From Thermococcus thermotolerans (GTDB lineage: Archaea > Methanobacteriota_B > Thermococci > Thermococcales > Thermococcaceae), in contig NZ_CP102602.1 in assembly GCF_024707485.1 (NCBI RefSeq), positions 1,054,001-1,118,000 on the forward strand: a stretch of DNA of 64,000 bases, read 5' to 3'. Both the position numbers and the translations under genes were made by a program. How positions within the stretch are numbered: the first letter of the stretch is position 1; each line of letters starts with the position of its first letter. The notes under the pieces were generated by a model. The model ran no database searches and was not told where the DNA came from. It worked only from the letters and a program-made list of their open reading frames with translations. Positions 13,343 through 52,422 of the stretch are shown here, piece after piece.

Positions 13343-14677
13343 TTACTCGGATAGTGTCTCCAGGAACTTGCGGCCCTTATCGGTCAGCCTGTAGTATACA
13401 CGCCTGCCCCTTCTATGAGATTCGCCTATCAGGCCCAGGCTTTCAAGCTCACGGAGGTGCTGGTAAACCGCCTGATACTTGAGCGGCTTCTCAAGGGCTT
13501 CCCATATCTCGTAGCCGTACATGACCCTCTCGCTGAGGAGCCTCAGTATATCAAGCTTCGTCCCTCCGATGCTGAACTTCTCCCGGGTTTCAGCGTAGTG
13601 CCCCTTGAGGCCAGAGCTGGTCACGATGAGCGCTATCCTGTCGTTCCTCTCGAAGTAGCCTTCCTCCGCCAGCTTGAGCAGGGCCGGAACTATCACCGCC
13701 GAAGCGTACTCCGCGAATATGCCCTCCCCGGCAAGCAACCTCTGCCCAAGGTCGAGCTCATCCTCGCCGACCATCACAGCGGTTCCATCGGTCTCGCCTA
13801 TGGCCTTCAAAGCCAGCTCCTTCATCACAGGGTTCTTCACGTAGAGCGCCAGCGCCTTGGTCGGCTCCGCCCTCGGCTCGACGCCCAGAACCTCACTCGC
13901 TATGGGGGAACATTTCTCCGCCTGAACCGCTATGAGCCGGGGCATCTCCTCGATGGTCCCTATCTCCATGAGCTCGACGAACCCCTTGTAGATACTGTAT
14001 AGGTTGCTCCCACTTCCCGTCGGGACCACCACGTGGGTCGGGTTCAGCTCCTCCCACAGCTCAAAGGCGAGCGTCTTCTGTCCCTCCAAACCTATGAGGT
14101 TGCTCTCGGGGGTGACGTTGTAGAGCCCCTTGCCCTCAGCCAATCCTTCCGCGTAGCTTATGCCCTCATCGACGCTCTCACCGTAGCGTATAACCTTGGC
14201 ACCGAAAGCCACTATCTGGTTCAGCTTCCCCTGCTCAACCAGTTTTGGAACGACTGTGTAGGCAGGCTTTCCTGCCCGGGCGGCATAGGCCGAAAGGGAA
14301 GCGGCGGCGTTTCCGTTGCTCGCAACCACAAAGCCGTTCTCGGCGTGGGGCATGCCATAGGAGACCGCCACGGTGATGAGCCTGTCCCTGAATGAACCCG
14401 TCGGATTCCTCGTCTCGTCCTTGATGAAGACGTTCAGCCCAAGTTCTTCACCGAGTTTTGCCTTCAGAAGAGGTGTTCCGCCCTCGTTCAGGCTGATTAC
14501 ACGGTCCACAGCGGGGAGAAGTTCCCGATACTTCCAAACACCGGGCTTTCTCCCTTTCCATGAAGAAACGTCCACGGATTCGTAGTCGTACGCTATCCTG
14601 AGCGGCTCACCGCAGGAGCACGTTGGGGGAATAAGGGAGGAGTAGAGCCTCCCGCAGCTTGGACATCGAACCTGCAT
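13343..14677 (-). CDS. Threonine-synthase-like PLP-fold protein fused to PadR-like winged helix
   Basis: 444 residues in three parts: an N-terminal zinc ribbon (CPSC near 5-8 and CSC near 20-22), a fold-type II PLP-enzyme domain to about residue 365, and a C-terminal winged helix whose GYEIWEAL, YQHLRELESLGLI and YRLTDKGR match PadR-type regulators. The segment that carries the PLP Schiff-base lysine in threonine synthase (PTGSFKDR) here reads PTGSFRDR, with Arg at 97 (codon AGG, 14387-14389). The phosphate-binding region PTGSGSNLY is kept. This may be a PLP- or amino-acid-sensing regulator rather than an enzyme, or may use another lysine. The gene follows aCPSF1 by 18 bases. Confidence 0.85.
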   Translation of the reverse strand: MQVRCPSCGRLYSSLIPPTCSCGEPLRIAYDYESVDVSSWKGRKPGVWKYRELLPAVDRVISLNEGGTPLLKAKLGEELGLNVFIKDETRNPTGSFRDRLITVAVSYGMPHAENGFVVASNGNAAASLSAYAARAGKPAYTVVPKLVEQGKLNQIVAFGAKVIRYGESVDEGISYAEGLAEGKGLYNVTPESNLIGLEGQKTLAFELWEELNPTHVVVPTGSGSNLYSIYKGFVELMEIGTIEEMPRLIAVQAEKCSPIASEVLGVEPRAEPTKALALYVKNPVMKELALKAIGETDGTAVMVGEDELDLGQRLLAGEGIFAEYASAVIVPALLKLAEEGYFERNDRIALIVTSSGLKGHYAETREKFSIGGTKLDILRLLSERVMYGYEIWEALEKPLKYQAVYQHLRELESLGLIGESHRRGRRVYYRLTDKGRKFLETLSE

Positions 14678-14695
14678 CGGGCATCACTCGGACGG

Positions 14696-16642
14696 TCACT
14701 TAAGCCTTATTGCATCCAGGTTGTTCGGGGCGCGCGTTGAGATGCCGAACTTCTTGTGGATGCTGGTGCTCAGGTCAAGGCACTTGTGTGGTTCTCCGTG
14801 GACGGTTATGACCCTCTCAGGCCTCGGTCTCAGCCTGGCTATGTAGCTGATAAGCTCCCTCCTGTCGGCGTGGCCGGAGAAGCCGTCGATGGTGTGAACC
14901 TCCATGTTGACCTTGACAACCTCGGTCTTTCCGCCCTCTCCGACCAGAGGTATTTCCCTGAGTCCCCTCTGAACCTGTCTTCCAAGCGTTCCCTCGGCCT
15001 GGTAGCTGACGAAGATCATGCTGTTCTTCGGGTCAGGAGCGAGCTGTTTGAAGTACTCCACGCTCGGCCCACCGACGAGCATGCCCGAAGTGGCTATGAT
15101 TATTGCCGGCTCTCCGCTGTCTATGATGTCCTGCCTCTCACGAGAGTTGGCAACGCTCTTGAAAACCGGATTGAGGAACGGGTTGTAGCCCTCGTGGAAT
15201 ATCTGCTCGCGCAGGTGCTTGCTGAGGTACTCCGGATAAGCCGTGTGGATTGCAGTGGCCTCCCATATCATTCCATCGAGGTATATGGGCACCTCTATAC
15301 CGCCGACCCGGGCGTACTCTTCGAGAACCATCATTATCTCCTGTGCCCTGCCGACCGCCATGGCAGGTATGAGAACCTTACCTCCCCTCCTAATCGTCTG
15401 ATGGATGACCTCTATAAGGCGCTTCTCGGCTTCTTCACGCGGCATCTGGTAGTCGTTGCTTCCTCCGTAGGTGGATTCCATAATGAGGGTCTCCAGACGC
15501 GGGAACCTGCTTACAGCGGGTTCAAAGAGCCTCGTAGGGATGAACTTGAAGTCTCCGGTTATGGCTATGTTGTGAAGCCCATTGCCTATGTGGAGGTGAA
15601 CTATCGATGAACCGAGGATGTGGCCTGCATTGTGGAGGGTGAGTCTCATGTCCGGGGCGATGTCGCGAACCTCGCCGTAGTCGAGGGTTATCGTGTGCTT
15701 GATGACCTCTTTGATGTCCCTCGGCCGGTAGAGAGGCTCGACGCCGTTCATCTGCTGTATCTCGATGAAGTCCTGCTGAAGGAGCACCATCAGATCCCTC
15801 GTCGGCGGTGTCGTGTATATCGGACCGTCGAAGAGCTTGTAGCGGAAGAGGTAAGGGAGCATTCCGCTGTGGTCGAGGTGGGCGTGGGTTATGATGATCG
15901 CATCGAGTAACCCAGCATCAAGAACGTACCTGAACTCGGGCGCGTCAAAATGCGGAAATGCCTTTTTGGGGTCGCGGAGGGCGGCTATGTTAACACCGAA
16001 GTCCACAAGAACATAACTTTCGTTAGTCTGGACTAGAAGGGCACTTCTACCAACCTCGCGGAAGCCCCCAAGGCTGGTTATCCTAATCCACTCGCTTTTC
16101 AGCTCGGGCTTGCGGTAGATGTTCCTGCCAACCTGGCGGAGGAACTTTCTCCTGTCCCTCGCCTCCGCCTGAAGTATCTGCCTTATCGAGTATATGGTCT
16201 GGCTCTGAAGCGGTGGTGTCCTTATGACGCGAGGCGCCCAGTGGACCTTCTGGGTTATCAAGCGAAGCGTTTCGCCGTTCTTTCCTATAACCAGGCCCGG
16301 CTTTTTGGCCTCTATGAGAACCTCACCGACGGACGGGTCAAAGCTTATGTTGGTTATCTCTGCCTCCGCCGGAACAATCTGCTTTATCATCTCCTCCGCC
16401 CTCTCTGGAGGAAGGAGGACTTCAGGGTCTGGACGGACGCTGATGCGCTTCTTTAGAACCTTGGCGAGGTTTTTGATGAGCTCCCCGTCCTGCATTATGG
16501 CTTCGGGATTCTTGACGTAGATTACAAGCTCTGGCCCTTCGAATTCAACTTCAGTTATCCTGGCCTCCCTCGGAACCATCTGGCTTATTACAGCTTTTAT
16601 GTCACGTAGAATGTCATCAACGAAAGTTTCTCTCCTTATCAA
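14696..16642 (-). CDS. aCPSF1/FttA transcription termination ribonuclease
   Basis: About 648 residues: two N-terminal KH-type domains (the second with GLVIGKNGETLRL), then a metallo-beta-lactamase core with the zinc motif HAHLDH starting at about 253 and a beta-CASP insert. This is the archaeal CPSF73-like factor that cleaves nascent RNA and ends transcription on U-rich sites. The end of the protein (VHGEPHKCLDL) keeps the last metal ligand. The TTG at 16642 has GAGGTG (16649-16654) at the proper distance; GTG codons at 16651 and 16648 overlap that site, although homologues could be read to support 16651. The gene follows psmB by about ten bases. Confidence 0.95.
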   Translation of the reverse strand: MIRRETFVDDILRDIKAVISQMVPREARITEVEFEGPELVIYVKNPEAIMQDGELIKNLAKVLKKRISVRPDPEVLLPPERAEEMIKQIVPAEAEITNISFDPSVGEVLIEAKKPGLVIGKNGETLRLITQKVHWAPRVIRTPPLQSQTIYSIRQILQAEARDRRKFLRQVGRNIYRKPELKSEWIRITSLGGFREVGRSALLVQTNESYVLVDFGVNIAALRDPKKAFPHFDAPEFRYVLDAGLLDAIIITHAHLDHSGMLPYLFRYKLFDGPIYTTPPTRDLMVLLQQDFIEIQQMNGVEPLYRPRDIKEVIKHTITLDYGEVRDIAPDMRLTLHNAGHILGSSIVHLHIGNGLHNIAITGDFKFIPTRLFEPAVSRFPRLETLIMESTYGGSNDYQMPREEAEKRLIEVIHQTIRRGGKVLIPAMAVGRAQEIMMVLEEYARVGGIEVPIYLDGMIWEATAIHTAYPEYLSKHLREQIFHEGYNPFLNPVFKSVANSRERQDIIDSGEPAIIIATSGMLVGGPSVEYFKQLAPDPKNSMIFVSYQAEGTLGRQVQRGLREIPLVGEGGKTEVVKVNMEVHTIDGFSGHADRRELISYIARLRPRPERVITVHGEPHKCLDLSTSIHKKFGISTRAPNNLDAIRLK

Positions 16643-16652
16643 AGCCACCACC

Positions 16653-17264
16653 TCACTTTAGAAGAGCCTCTATCTCCTCCTTGCTCAGCTCCCTGTAACC
16701 GTCTTCCGTGACGGTAACGAGAGTTATCCCATCCCCCGTGAAAACATCGCGCCTTGTGGCTACCTTTATCGCCCTGAGGGCAAGTCTGATGCCCCCCTCA
16801 AGCCCCATGTCCTCGCTATACCCATCCTCAAGAACCGCAAAGGCAAACTCCATTCCAGAACCGGCAGCGGTGAATCTGTCTTCGGTAACGCCGCCGGCCA
16901 TGTCTATCGAGTACAGTCCGGGCCTCTCATCGTAGCCCGCTATGAGGAACCACCCAAAGTACGGCATGAACCTCCTGCCGTGGAGGATGTTAGAAGTCAG
17001 CGTAGCAAGGGCCTTCACACTCATCTCGTTCCCGACCTTGGCCCTGTACAGTCTAGCCTCAGCCCTCAGAAGCCTGACGAGCGAGAGGATGTCCCCAACG
17101 CTCCCGGCACCGGCCAAGGCCAAGTGGTCGTCTATCTGGAATACCTTTGTGACGTTCCCCGAAAGCACCATGTTGCCGAGCGATGCCCTCCTGTCCGCCG
17201 CTAGGACGACGCCGTCCTTACACACAATGCCGACCGTAGTCGTTCCCTTTAGCTTTTCAGCCAA
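16653..17264 (-). CDS. psmB: Proteasome beta subunit
   Basis: A 203-residue N-terminal-nucleophile hydrolase. A seven-residue propeptide ends in Gly before TTTVGIVCK, so the mature protein begins with the catalytic Thr; D17 and K33 of the mature numbering are also present (ADRRAS and VTKVF). It forms the inner rings of the 20S proteasome with the alpha subunit, which is not in this window. Thermococcales usually carry two beta subunits; the sequence GNMVLS and location next to aCPSF1 fit the beta-1 type. Translation starts at TTG after GGGGTG. Confidence 0.96.
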
Positions 17265-51357: not shown

Positions 51358-52422
51358 CTAAATACCTTCGGTCAGTTTGAGGCCCGAACCAGTGAGAGGG
51401 AGAAGGACCCTCGAACCATCCGGAATTTCGCCGCTCTCGACCAGCTTCCACAGAGCCGCGAGGACAACGGCAGAGGTGGGCTCAACCAGAAAACCCGCCC
51501 GCTTGAGCCAGTCCAATGCTTCCACCGTTTCGGGCCCTTCAATGCTCACACAGAGACCGTTTGTTTCCTTGATCGCCCTCTTCATTTCATCAATCCTCGG
51601 AGGTTCCGGAATCGCTATCCCATCAGCCAGACCGTTGGTGAGGGGCGAACGCTCGCAGAGACTTTCGTAGCCGCTGGCCTGAACCGCAACGAGCCGGGGG
51701 AGCTCCGCGATCTCGCCCATATCCCTTAATTCCGTGAAGCCCTTCCAGAGGCCGAGGAAGAGCGTTCCGCTCCCCGCTGGGGCCAAGACGTAGTCGGGAA
51801 CACCGACCTGCTCGTAAGTTTCAAAGGCCACCGTTTTTGTGCCCTCGATGAAGTACGGATTGAGCCAGTGGGAGACGTAGGTTATCCCCTCGCGCTCTGC
51901 AAACTCTACTGCCATTTCGTGAACCTTCATCCTGTCCCCATCAACGAAGTGGAGTACCGCCCCAAGCCTCTCCAGAAGCGAGAGCTTCTCCGGCATCGTA
52001 TTGTATGAGACGAATAGGTGGGCAGTTATCCCGGCCGGAAGGGAGTACAAGGCCATGCTCAGGGCCGCGTTGCCGGAGCTGTCGAGGACGACCTCCCGGA
52101 TCCCTTCCTCCATGAGCTTTGCCACGGTGACGTAGGTCCCACGATCCTTGAAGGAGCCACTCGGATGGAGGTATTCGAGCTTGAACAGCCCGACGACCGG
52201 ACCTATCTGGAGTGCAGCGGTCGGGGTGATAGCGGGCACTGCCGGGGGGAGGTAGTTCCCGCCCACGGGGAGGAAGTTGAGGTAGCGGCGCATGTCTAGG
52301 TACGAGAGGAGGCTACCGAAGAAGCTGAAGTGGTTCCGCCTGACTAGCAGGGTTCCGCCGCAGTCGCAGTTCAGACGAAACGTCTCCGGGTACTTCCTAC
52401 CGCAACGTGAGCAGACGAGCAT
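51358..52422 (-). CDS. Threonine-synthase-like PLP enzyme
   Basis: A 354-residue fold-type II PLP enzyme with an N-terminal zinc ribbon (CSRCG near 4-8 and CDCGG near 19-23). Unlike the longer paralogue at 13.3 kb it keeps the PLP lysine, K92 in HPSGSFKDRG, and the phosphate-binding APAGSGTLFLG, and it has no C-terminal DNA-binding domain. It could be the true threonine synthase or a related enzyme such as a cysteate-synthase-like one. The ATG at 52422 follows GGGTGGT. Confidence 0.85.
   Translation of the reverse strand: MLVCSRCGRKYPETFRLNCDCGGTLLVRRNHFSFFGSLLSYLDMRRYLNFLPVGGNYLPPAVPAITPTAALQIGPVVGLFKLEYLHPSGSFKDRGTYVTVAKLMEEGIREVVLDSSGNAALSMALYSLPAGITAHLFVSYNTMPEKLSLLERLGAVLHFVDGDRMKVHEMAVEFAEREGITYVSHWLNPYFIEGTKTVAFETYEQVGVPDYVLAPAGSGTLFLGLWKGFTELRDMGEIAELPRLVAVQASGYESLCERSPLTNGLADGIAIPEPPRIDEMKRAIKETNGLCVSIEGPETVEALDWLKRAGFLVEPTSAVVLAALWKLVESGEIPDGSRVLLPLTGSGLKLTEGI

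Follow-up and report, generated by a model that had tools for sequence, protein, structure and literature searches.

A threonine synthase-like archaeal protein with a PadR-type tail is a probable PLP-responsive repressor of vitamin B6 genes

The open reading frame at positions 13343–14677 (minus strand) of the window, the whole 64-kb stretch of Thermococcus thermotolerans DNA that was analyzed, encodes a protein of 444 amino acids that probably senses PLP and represses the synthesis and uptake of vitamin B6. The first-pass annotation had suggested that an enzyme had here become a transcription factor that senses an amino acid or PLP, and the PLP branch of this reading is now supported by comparative genomics, namely a predicted operator at pdxS and ecfS (the latter encoding an ECF transporter S component, PF07155) and gene linkage. 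On these grounds it is very likely that pdxS and ecfS constitute the regulon of the PALP-PadR protein, and PLP itself may be put forward as its ligand with reasonable confidence. The features of the locus are as follows.

13343–14677, minus strand: PALP-PadR protein, proposed PLP-responsive repressor of vitamin B6 genes (NCBIfam NF004170/PRK05638, "threonine synthase")
14588–14677, minus strand: N-terminal zinc ribbon, residues 1–30 (C5, C8, C20, C22), from sequence and conservation
13604–14497, minus strand: PALP fold-type-II domain, residues 61–358, proposed PLP sensor (PF00291, AlphaFold2 model, PDB folds)
14387–14389, minus strand: Arg97 codon AGG, at the position of the Schiff-base lysine (Lys61 of Thermus threonine synthase, Tt), from the alignment
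14309–14311, minus strand: Asn123, aligned with Tt Asn87, invariant (alignment)
14090–14092, minus strand: Gly196, aligned with Tt Arg160, a position at which every PALP-PadR member is without Arg (alignment)
14003–14023, minus strand: phosphate loop PTGSGSN, residues 219–225, with G221 and G223 invariant in the PALP-PadR clade (alignment)
13619–13621, minus strand: Thr353, aligned with Tt Thr317, invariant (alignment)
13352–13561, minus strand: C-terminal PadR-type winged helix, residues 373–442 (PF03551; secondary structure of the AlphaFold2 model)
13439–13477, minus strand: recognition helix, residues 401–413 (YQAVYQHLRELES), from conservation and the AlphaFold2 model
14696–16651, minus strand: aCPSF1, upstream co-directional gene after an 18-bp gap, context only (synteny)

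The C-terminal PadR winged helix, zinc ribbon and phosphate loop described at the first reading were all borne out. Pfam matches were obtained for PALP at residues 61–353 (E 1.2e-64) and for PF03551 at residues 377–440 (E 2.2e-10; 40.8 bits against a gathering cut-off of 27 bits). Among 60 distinct full-length Thermococcales orthologues, the zinc-ribbon residue C5 is present in 59 and C8, C20 and C22 in all. Within the recognition helix, Y401, Q402, A403, Q406, H407, E410 and L411 are invariant in Thermococcales; YQAVYQHL is strongly conserved, and QAVYQHL is mostly retained in other families. The AlphaFold2 model has a mean pLDDT of 87 and a pTM of 0.80, with runs of pLDDT below 50 only at residues 91–94 and in the linker at 356–371. 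The solved structures closest to it in fold are threonine synthases (PDB 6NMX, 2D1F and 1V7C), with TM-scores to the target of 0.82–0.84.

Arg97 is encoded by AGG (14389–14387) inside NPTGSFRDR, as originally noted. A sequence error at this codon could be ruled out, given that Arg is present in 59/60 distinct full-length Thermococcales orthologues and that AGG, AGA, CGC, CGT, CGA and CGG are all used there. It is thus the amino acid, not the codon, that is conserved. The combination of Arg97 and tail is also found in four orthologues of the sister order (family f2).

The remainder of the active-site region was assessed by alignment. Here, we take Tt Asn87 to be the contact for the PLP 3′-oxygen in fold-type-II enzymes, Tt Thr317 to be the contact for the pyridine N1 and Tt Arg160 to be the contact for the phosphate of the substrate, O-phosphohomoserine. 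Residues N123, G221, G223 and T353, which align with the ring, 3′-oxygen and phosphate contacts, were observed in 30/30 PALP-PadR rows. The Arg160-equivalent was absent from all 30, including the rows that bear Lys or Leu at site 97, and was replaced by Gly, Ser, Val, Ala, Ile, Thr or Phe; in threonine synthases neighboring thrB, this position is Arg. Retention of the four invariant residues together with loss of the Arg160-equivalent implies that the cofactor pocket has been kept and that the substrate machinery is gone.

The following mechanism is proposed. The PALP domain, with its PLP pocket kept and both the Schiff-base lysine and the substrate-phosphate Arg gone, would bind PLP reversibly and without catalysis. 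PLP would be held non-covalently where site 97 is Arg; the members that bear Lys could carry it as an aldimine, in the manner of MocR proteins. The C-terminal winged helix would bind the palindrome TTCAAGTTnnAACTTGAA at the pdxS and ecfS promoters, and protein seated on this TATA-box element would block assembly of the pre-initiation complex and so repress transcription. PLP would most likely be a co-repressor, such that synthesis and import are switched off when it is plentiful; this is the simplest sign, given that both targets raise PLP. Alternatively, the same repressor of pdxS and ecfS might respond to a ligand other than free PLP, such as a PLP-amino-acid aldimine, pyridoxamine phosphate or a phosphorylated amino acid. 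The pocket seems roomy enough for a PLP adduct, an external aldimine that has already formed could be bound directly where the lysine is missing, and the ring and phosphate sites are both kept. However, the clade-wide loss of the Arg160-equivalent argues against phosphohomoserine, and a regulon made up of B6 genes only would make a B6 vitamer the economical signal. A different ligand is accordingly judged unlikely, and free PLP is preferred.

In Thermococcales, TTCAAGTTnnAACTTGAA, with the core CAAG-N6-CTTG, is adjacent to the TATA box of pdxS and ecfS or overlaps it. At ecfS, it lies directly at the TATA box in genomes that bear the PALP-PadR gene and is absent in those without it; pdxS has this palindrome at its TATA box as well, often as a tandem pair. 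Predicted operators were scored by their match to the 16 specified positions of TTCAAGTTnnAACTTGAA. At pdxS, the best score was ≥13/16 in 42/45 genomes with the gene versus 2/22 without it, the two exceptions being the 73%-complete G053 and the 86%-complete G051. The corresponding values at ecfS were 37/41 and 0/10, where the stretches scanned were 68–81 bp in genomes without the gene and up to 330 bp in some with it. Shuffled 150-bp sequence reached a score of ≥13 in 0.04% of cases. The Fisher p values (6e-12 and 8e-8) overstate the evidence, given that the genomes are related, that the correlation within Thermococcales goes back to few losses and that the tree gives about 2–3 independent contrasts. 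Weak pdxS operators with scores of 11–12 were found in three g3 genomes. That the predicted operator at pdxS and at B6-type ECF-S promoters tracks presence of the gene supports PLP rather than an amino acid as the signal.

Genome-wide searches of 18 genomes are more informative: with ≤1 mismatch, 16 of the 17 sites returned were at the promoters of pdxS or ecfS, and no such site was seen in the three genomes among the 18 that are without the gene. With ≤2 mismatches, the sites in the T. thermotolerans genome were at ecfS (C1:1677413), in tandem at pdxS (1332726 and 1332750) and near the 3′ end of glyA (393575). The glyA site and a site between moeA and serS in G078 are probable chance matches. 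No operator with ≤3 mismatches was found in the 64-kb window, and autoregulation within the window was rejected for this reason.

Relatives were sought in 396 genomes, and full-length ones were found in five further archaeal families. In these, the gene is directly adjoined by ecfS (L151, L152, L153 and L154), lies one gene away from it (L155) or is directly followed by pdxS and pdxT (L156). Across the ten gene-bearing genomes outside Thermococcales, pdxS is absent in all but G224, and ecfS is present in all but G097, which is 69% complete. Related palindromes abut the TATA box of the ecfS promoter in family f14 (TTCAAG-TATAAC-CTTGTATACAAG-TATAAA-CTTGAA) and in family f2 (TATACAAG-N6-CTTGTATA). 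Taken by itself, the f2 site does not reach significance against the 16-position consensus (11/16, shuffle p about 0.2); it is counted because its arms are perfectly inverted copies of each other and share the CAAG-N6-CTTG core. A partial site was seen in G366 (13/16, shuffle p 0.005), the operators in G289 and G328 are weak, as are those of f28 and f57 (shuffle p 0.05–0.09), and none was recognized in G224.

In Thermococcales, the gene is unlinked to pdxS or ecfS and is located in the psmB-aCPSF1 cluster. In most genomes, it stands at short distances behind psmB and aCPSF1 (14677–17264, minus strand, in the window), an arrangement with no evident B6 link; in L068 and L076, it is instead found in a polyamine cluster with speE. 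Operon context was discarded as a clue to the regulon, given that psmB-aCPSF1-gene-rpiA synteny is uninformative and that two g2 genomes have the polyamine cluster. Presence of ecfS is recorded in 66/67 Thermococcales genomes with the gene versus 12/27 without it. Every Thermococcales genome that is ≥90% complete has pdxS, ecfS or both, as B6-vitamer import by ecfS would predict.

It is conceivable that the palindrome is bound by another transcription factor that was lost together with the gene, and that the PALP-PadR protein acts elsewhere. Gene-bearing and gene-less genomes fall in clusters on the tree, so that any co-lost factor would show the same correlation. Nevertheless, such a factor is very unlikely, given that other families have the gene itself beside ecfS or pdxST, that related palindromes recur in the ecfS promoters of f14 and f2 and that the recognition helix is highly conserved. 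Binding of the palindrome by the PALP-PadR protein is the favored interpretation.

The nature of the predicted transporter target was considered by comparing three archaeal S components with the PDB. The only solved relative at E ≤1e-3 was 4HZU chain S (E 2.7e-21 to 1.9e-16). This chain is HmpT (HmpT/PdxU2), from which pyridoxamine was extracted and for which it is the reported substrate (PMC4860826). Two HmpT residues named in that work differ in archaeal ecfS, E41 being D and H84 being K in an alignment read by eye. As judged from this relationship, ecfS probably encodes an HmpT-like ECF S component that imports a B6 vitamer. B6 transporters have been called mysterious in most species (PMC9997740).

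It had been asked at the outset whether Arg97 and the winged helix always occur together. Alignment of orthologues showed that they do in most cases, but that some tailed members have Lys or Leu instead. Site 97 is Lys in L068 and in the distant L155, both with the same tail, and in the fragment L081; it is Leu in L156. L068 and L081 belong to genus g2, the third member of which (L076) has Arg, and Lys in L068 and L081, with unchanged flanking sequence, is probably a reversion. The existence of Lys and Leu members led to rejection of Arg97 as the sole switch, and the alignment indicates a frequent but not obligatory feature of the proposed sensor. In a tree built from PALP columns only, with column 97 removed and the tail columns left out, all tailed proteins formed one clade with support of 99/96 and with Arg in most branches; the long-branch rows L151, L155 and L156 could not be placed with certainty. 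As far as sequence can indicate, the tailed clade as a whole is marked by the tail and by loss of the Arg160-equivalent, not by Arg97.

The database name of the protein was also evaluated. NF004170, a model that takes in the tail, matches residues 3–442 with 751.5 bits against a curated cut-off of 421 bits, and TIGR00260 (thrC) scores 144.3 bits, under its cut-off of 167.1 bits. Lysines K86, K151 and K201 are invariant in the Thermococcales orthologues; K151 and K201 are not a replacement for the Schiff-base lysine, given that ordinary threonine synthases conserve both. Three other PALP paralogues in the 2.07-Mb T. thermotolerans genome retain the lysine. The protein is an NF004170 member by sequence but does not appear to be a threonine synthase, and the functional name looks wrong. 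The paralogue at 51358–52422 (minus strand) was confirmed to have Lys92 and no tail. It is of the PRK08329 type and may also be no true threonine synthase, given Phe at the position equivalent to Arg160.

No thrB-type homoserine kinase was found in the T. thermotolerans genome, and it is likewise absent in 59/94 Thermococcales; its presence in the other 35 does not track the PALP-PadR gene. By comparison, the homoserine dehydrogenase gene hom is near-universal in Thermococcales, including T. thermotolerans, and lies downstream of genes for a CBS-domain protein and a decarboxylase-type protein. Threonine synthesis in T. thermotolerans is either incomplete or proceeds with another kinase. The PALP-PadR gene showed no link to threonine or amino-acid genes. 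A role as regulator of the threonine pathway was rejected on the basis of the missing thrB, its independence of the gene and the context of hom. A PALP enzyme with full or residual activity (threonine synthase or another lyase) that uses Arg or another lysine and carries an autoregulatory DNA-binding tail would suit the NF004170 name and score, the Lys of L068, L081 and L155 and the three invariant lysines, but is highly improbable given the replacement of the Schiff-base lysine in almost all members, the loss of the phosphate-binding Arg even where site 97 is Lys, the sub-threshold thrC score, the genome without thrB, the lysine retained by other paralogues and the conservation of K151 and K201 in ordinary threonine synthases too.

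Compared with threonine synthase (ThrC), the PALP-PadR protein shares the fold, a zinc ribbon as in archaeal relatives and the PLP-contact residues, and differs by Lys61 to Arg97, Arg160 to Gly196, Thr88 to Ala124, the added winged helix and a predicted B6 regulon in place of the threonine pathway. As in PadR-family regulators (PF03551), a winged helix above the Pfam gathering score is combined with a palindromic operator, here a predicted one. Those regulators are small stand-alone proteins with an N-terminal DNA-binding domain and a C-terminal dimerization helix, whereas here the PadR domain is the tail of a PLP-enzyme domain. Fold-type-II PLP relatives also have signaling roles in Bacillus subtilis CysK-CymR and Caenorhabditis elegans CYSL-1, where they act by protein-protein contact; only in the PALP-PadR protein is a DNA-binding domain fused in.

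The known PLP-sensing transcription factors are MocR regulators. The closest functional parallel may be bacterial MocR/PdxR, which regulates pdxST and B6 transport genes and is reported not to be present in Archaea (PMC5320631). MocR-family PdxR likewise joins a winged helix to a PLP-enzyme domain, and the predicted PALP-PadR targets, pdxS and ecfS, are similar. However, PdxR has an N-terminal GntR winged helix and a fold-type-I aminotransferase domain, an architecture not shared by the PALP-PadR protein, in which a fold-type-II PALP domain precedes a C-terminal PadR domain; the latter is also archaeal, and most members are missing the Schiff-base lysine. No description of the PALP-PadR protein as a regulator, or of a B6 regulator in heat-loving archaea, was found in open-licence papers; an earlier prediction elsewhere is possible. 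We consider it rather likely that the protein represents an undescribed family of archaeal B6 repressors, spread over six or more archaeal families. In this reading, loss of the Schiff-base lysine turned a fold-type-II PLP enzyme into a non-covalent sensor of PLP, independently of MocR/PdxR, and the regulon of the family identifies an ECF S component as the archaeal B6-vitamer importer. If so, PLP sensing would have arisen from a PLP enzyme for a second time, loss of a catalytic lysine would have been maintained by strong purifying selection, and "threonine synthase" would be the wrong name for the NF004170 family. The locus offers a candidate regulator, operator and transporter at once, testable in Thermococcus.

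Two further observations concern individual genomes. In the single-contig genome that contains L080 (G077:C1:1993000-2001000), the gene is interrupted near residue 145 and falls into two frames, and both operators are intact (ecfS 16/16, pdxS 14/16); the split is either a recent pseudogene or a sequence error. In genomes without the gene, pdxS promoters often have a different palindrome, TTCAAATCnnnATCTGAA, just past the TATA box (for example, L205, L207, L245, L246, L247, L248, L250, L251 and L252), which may belong to a replacement regulator.
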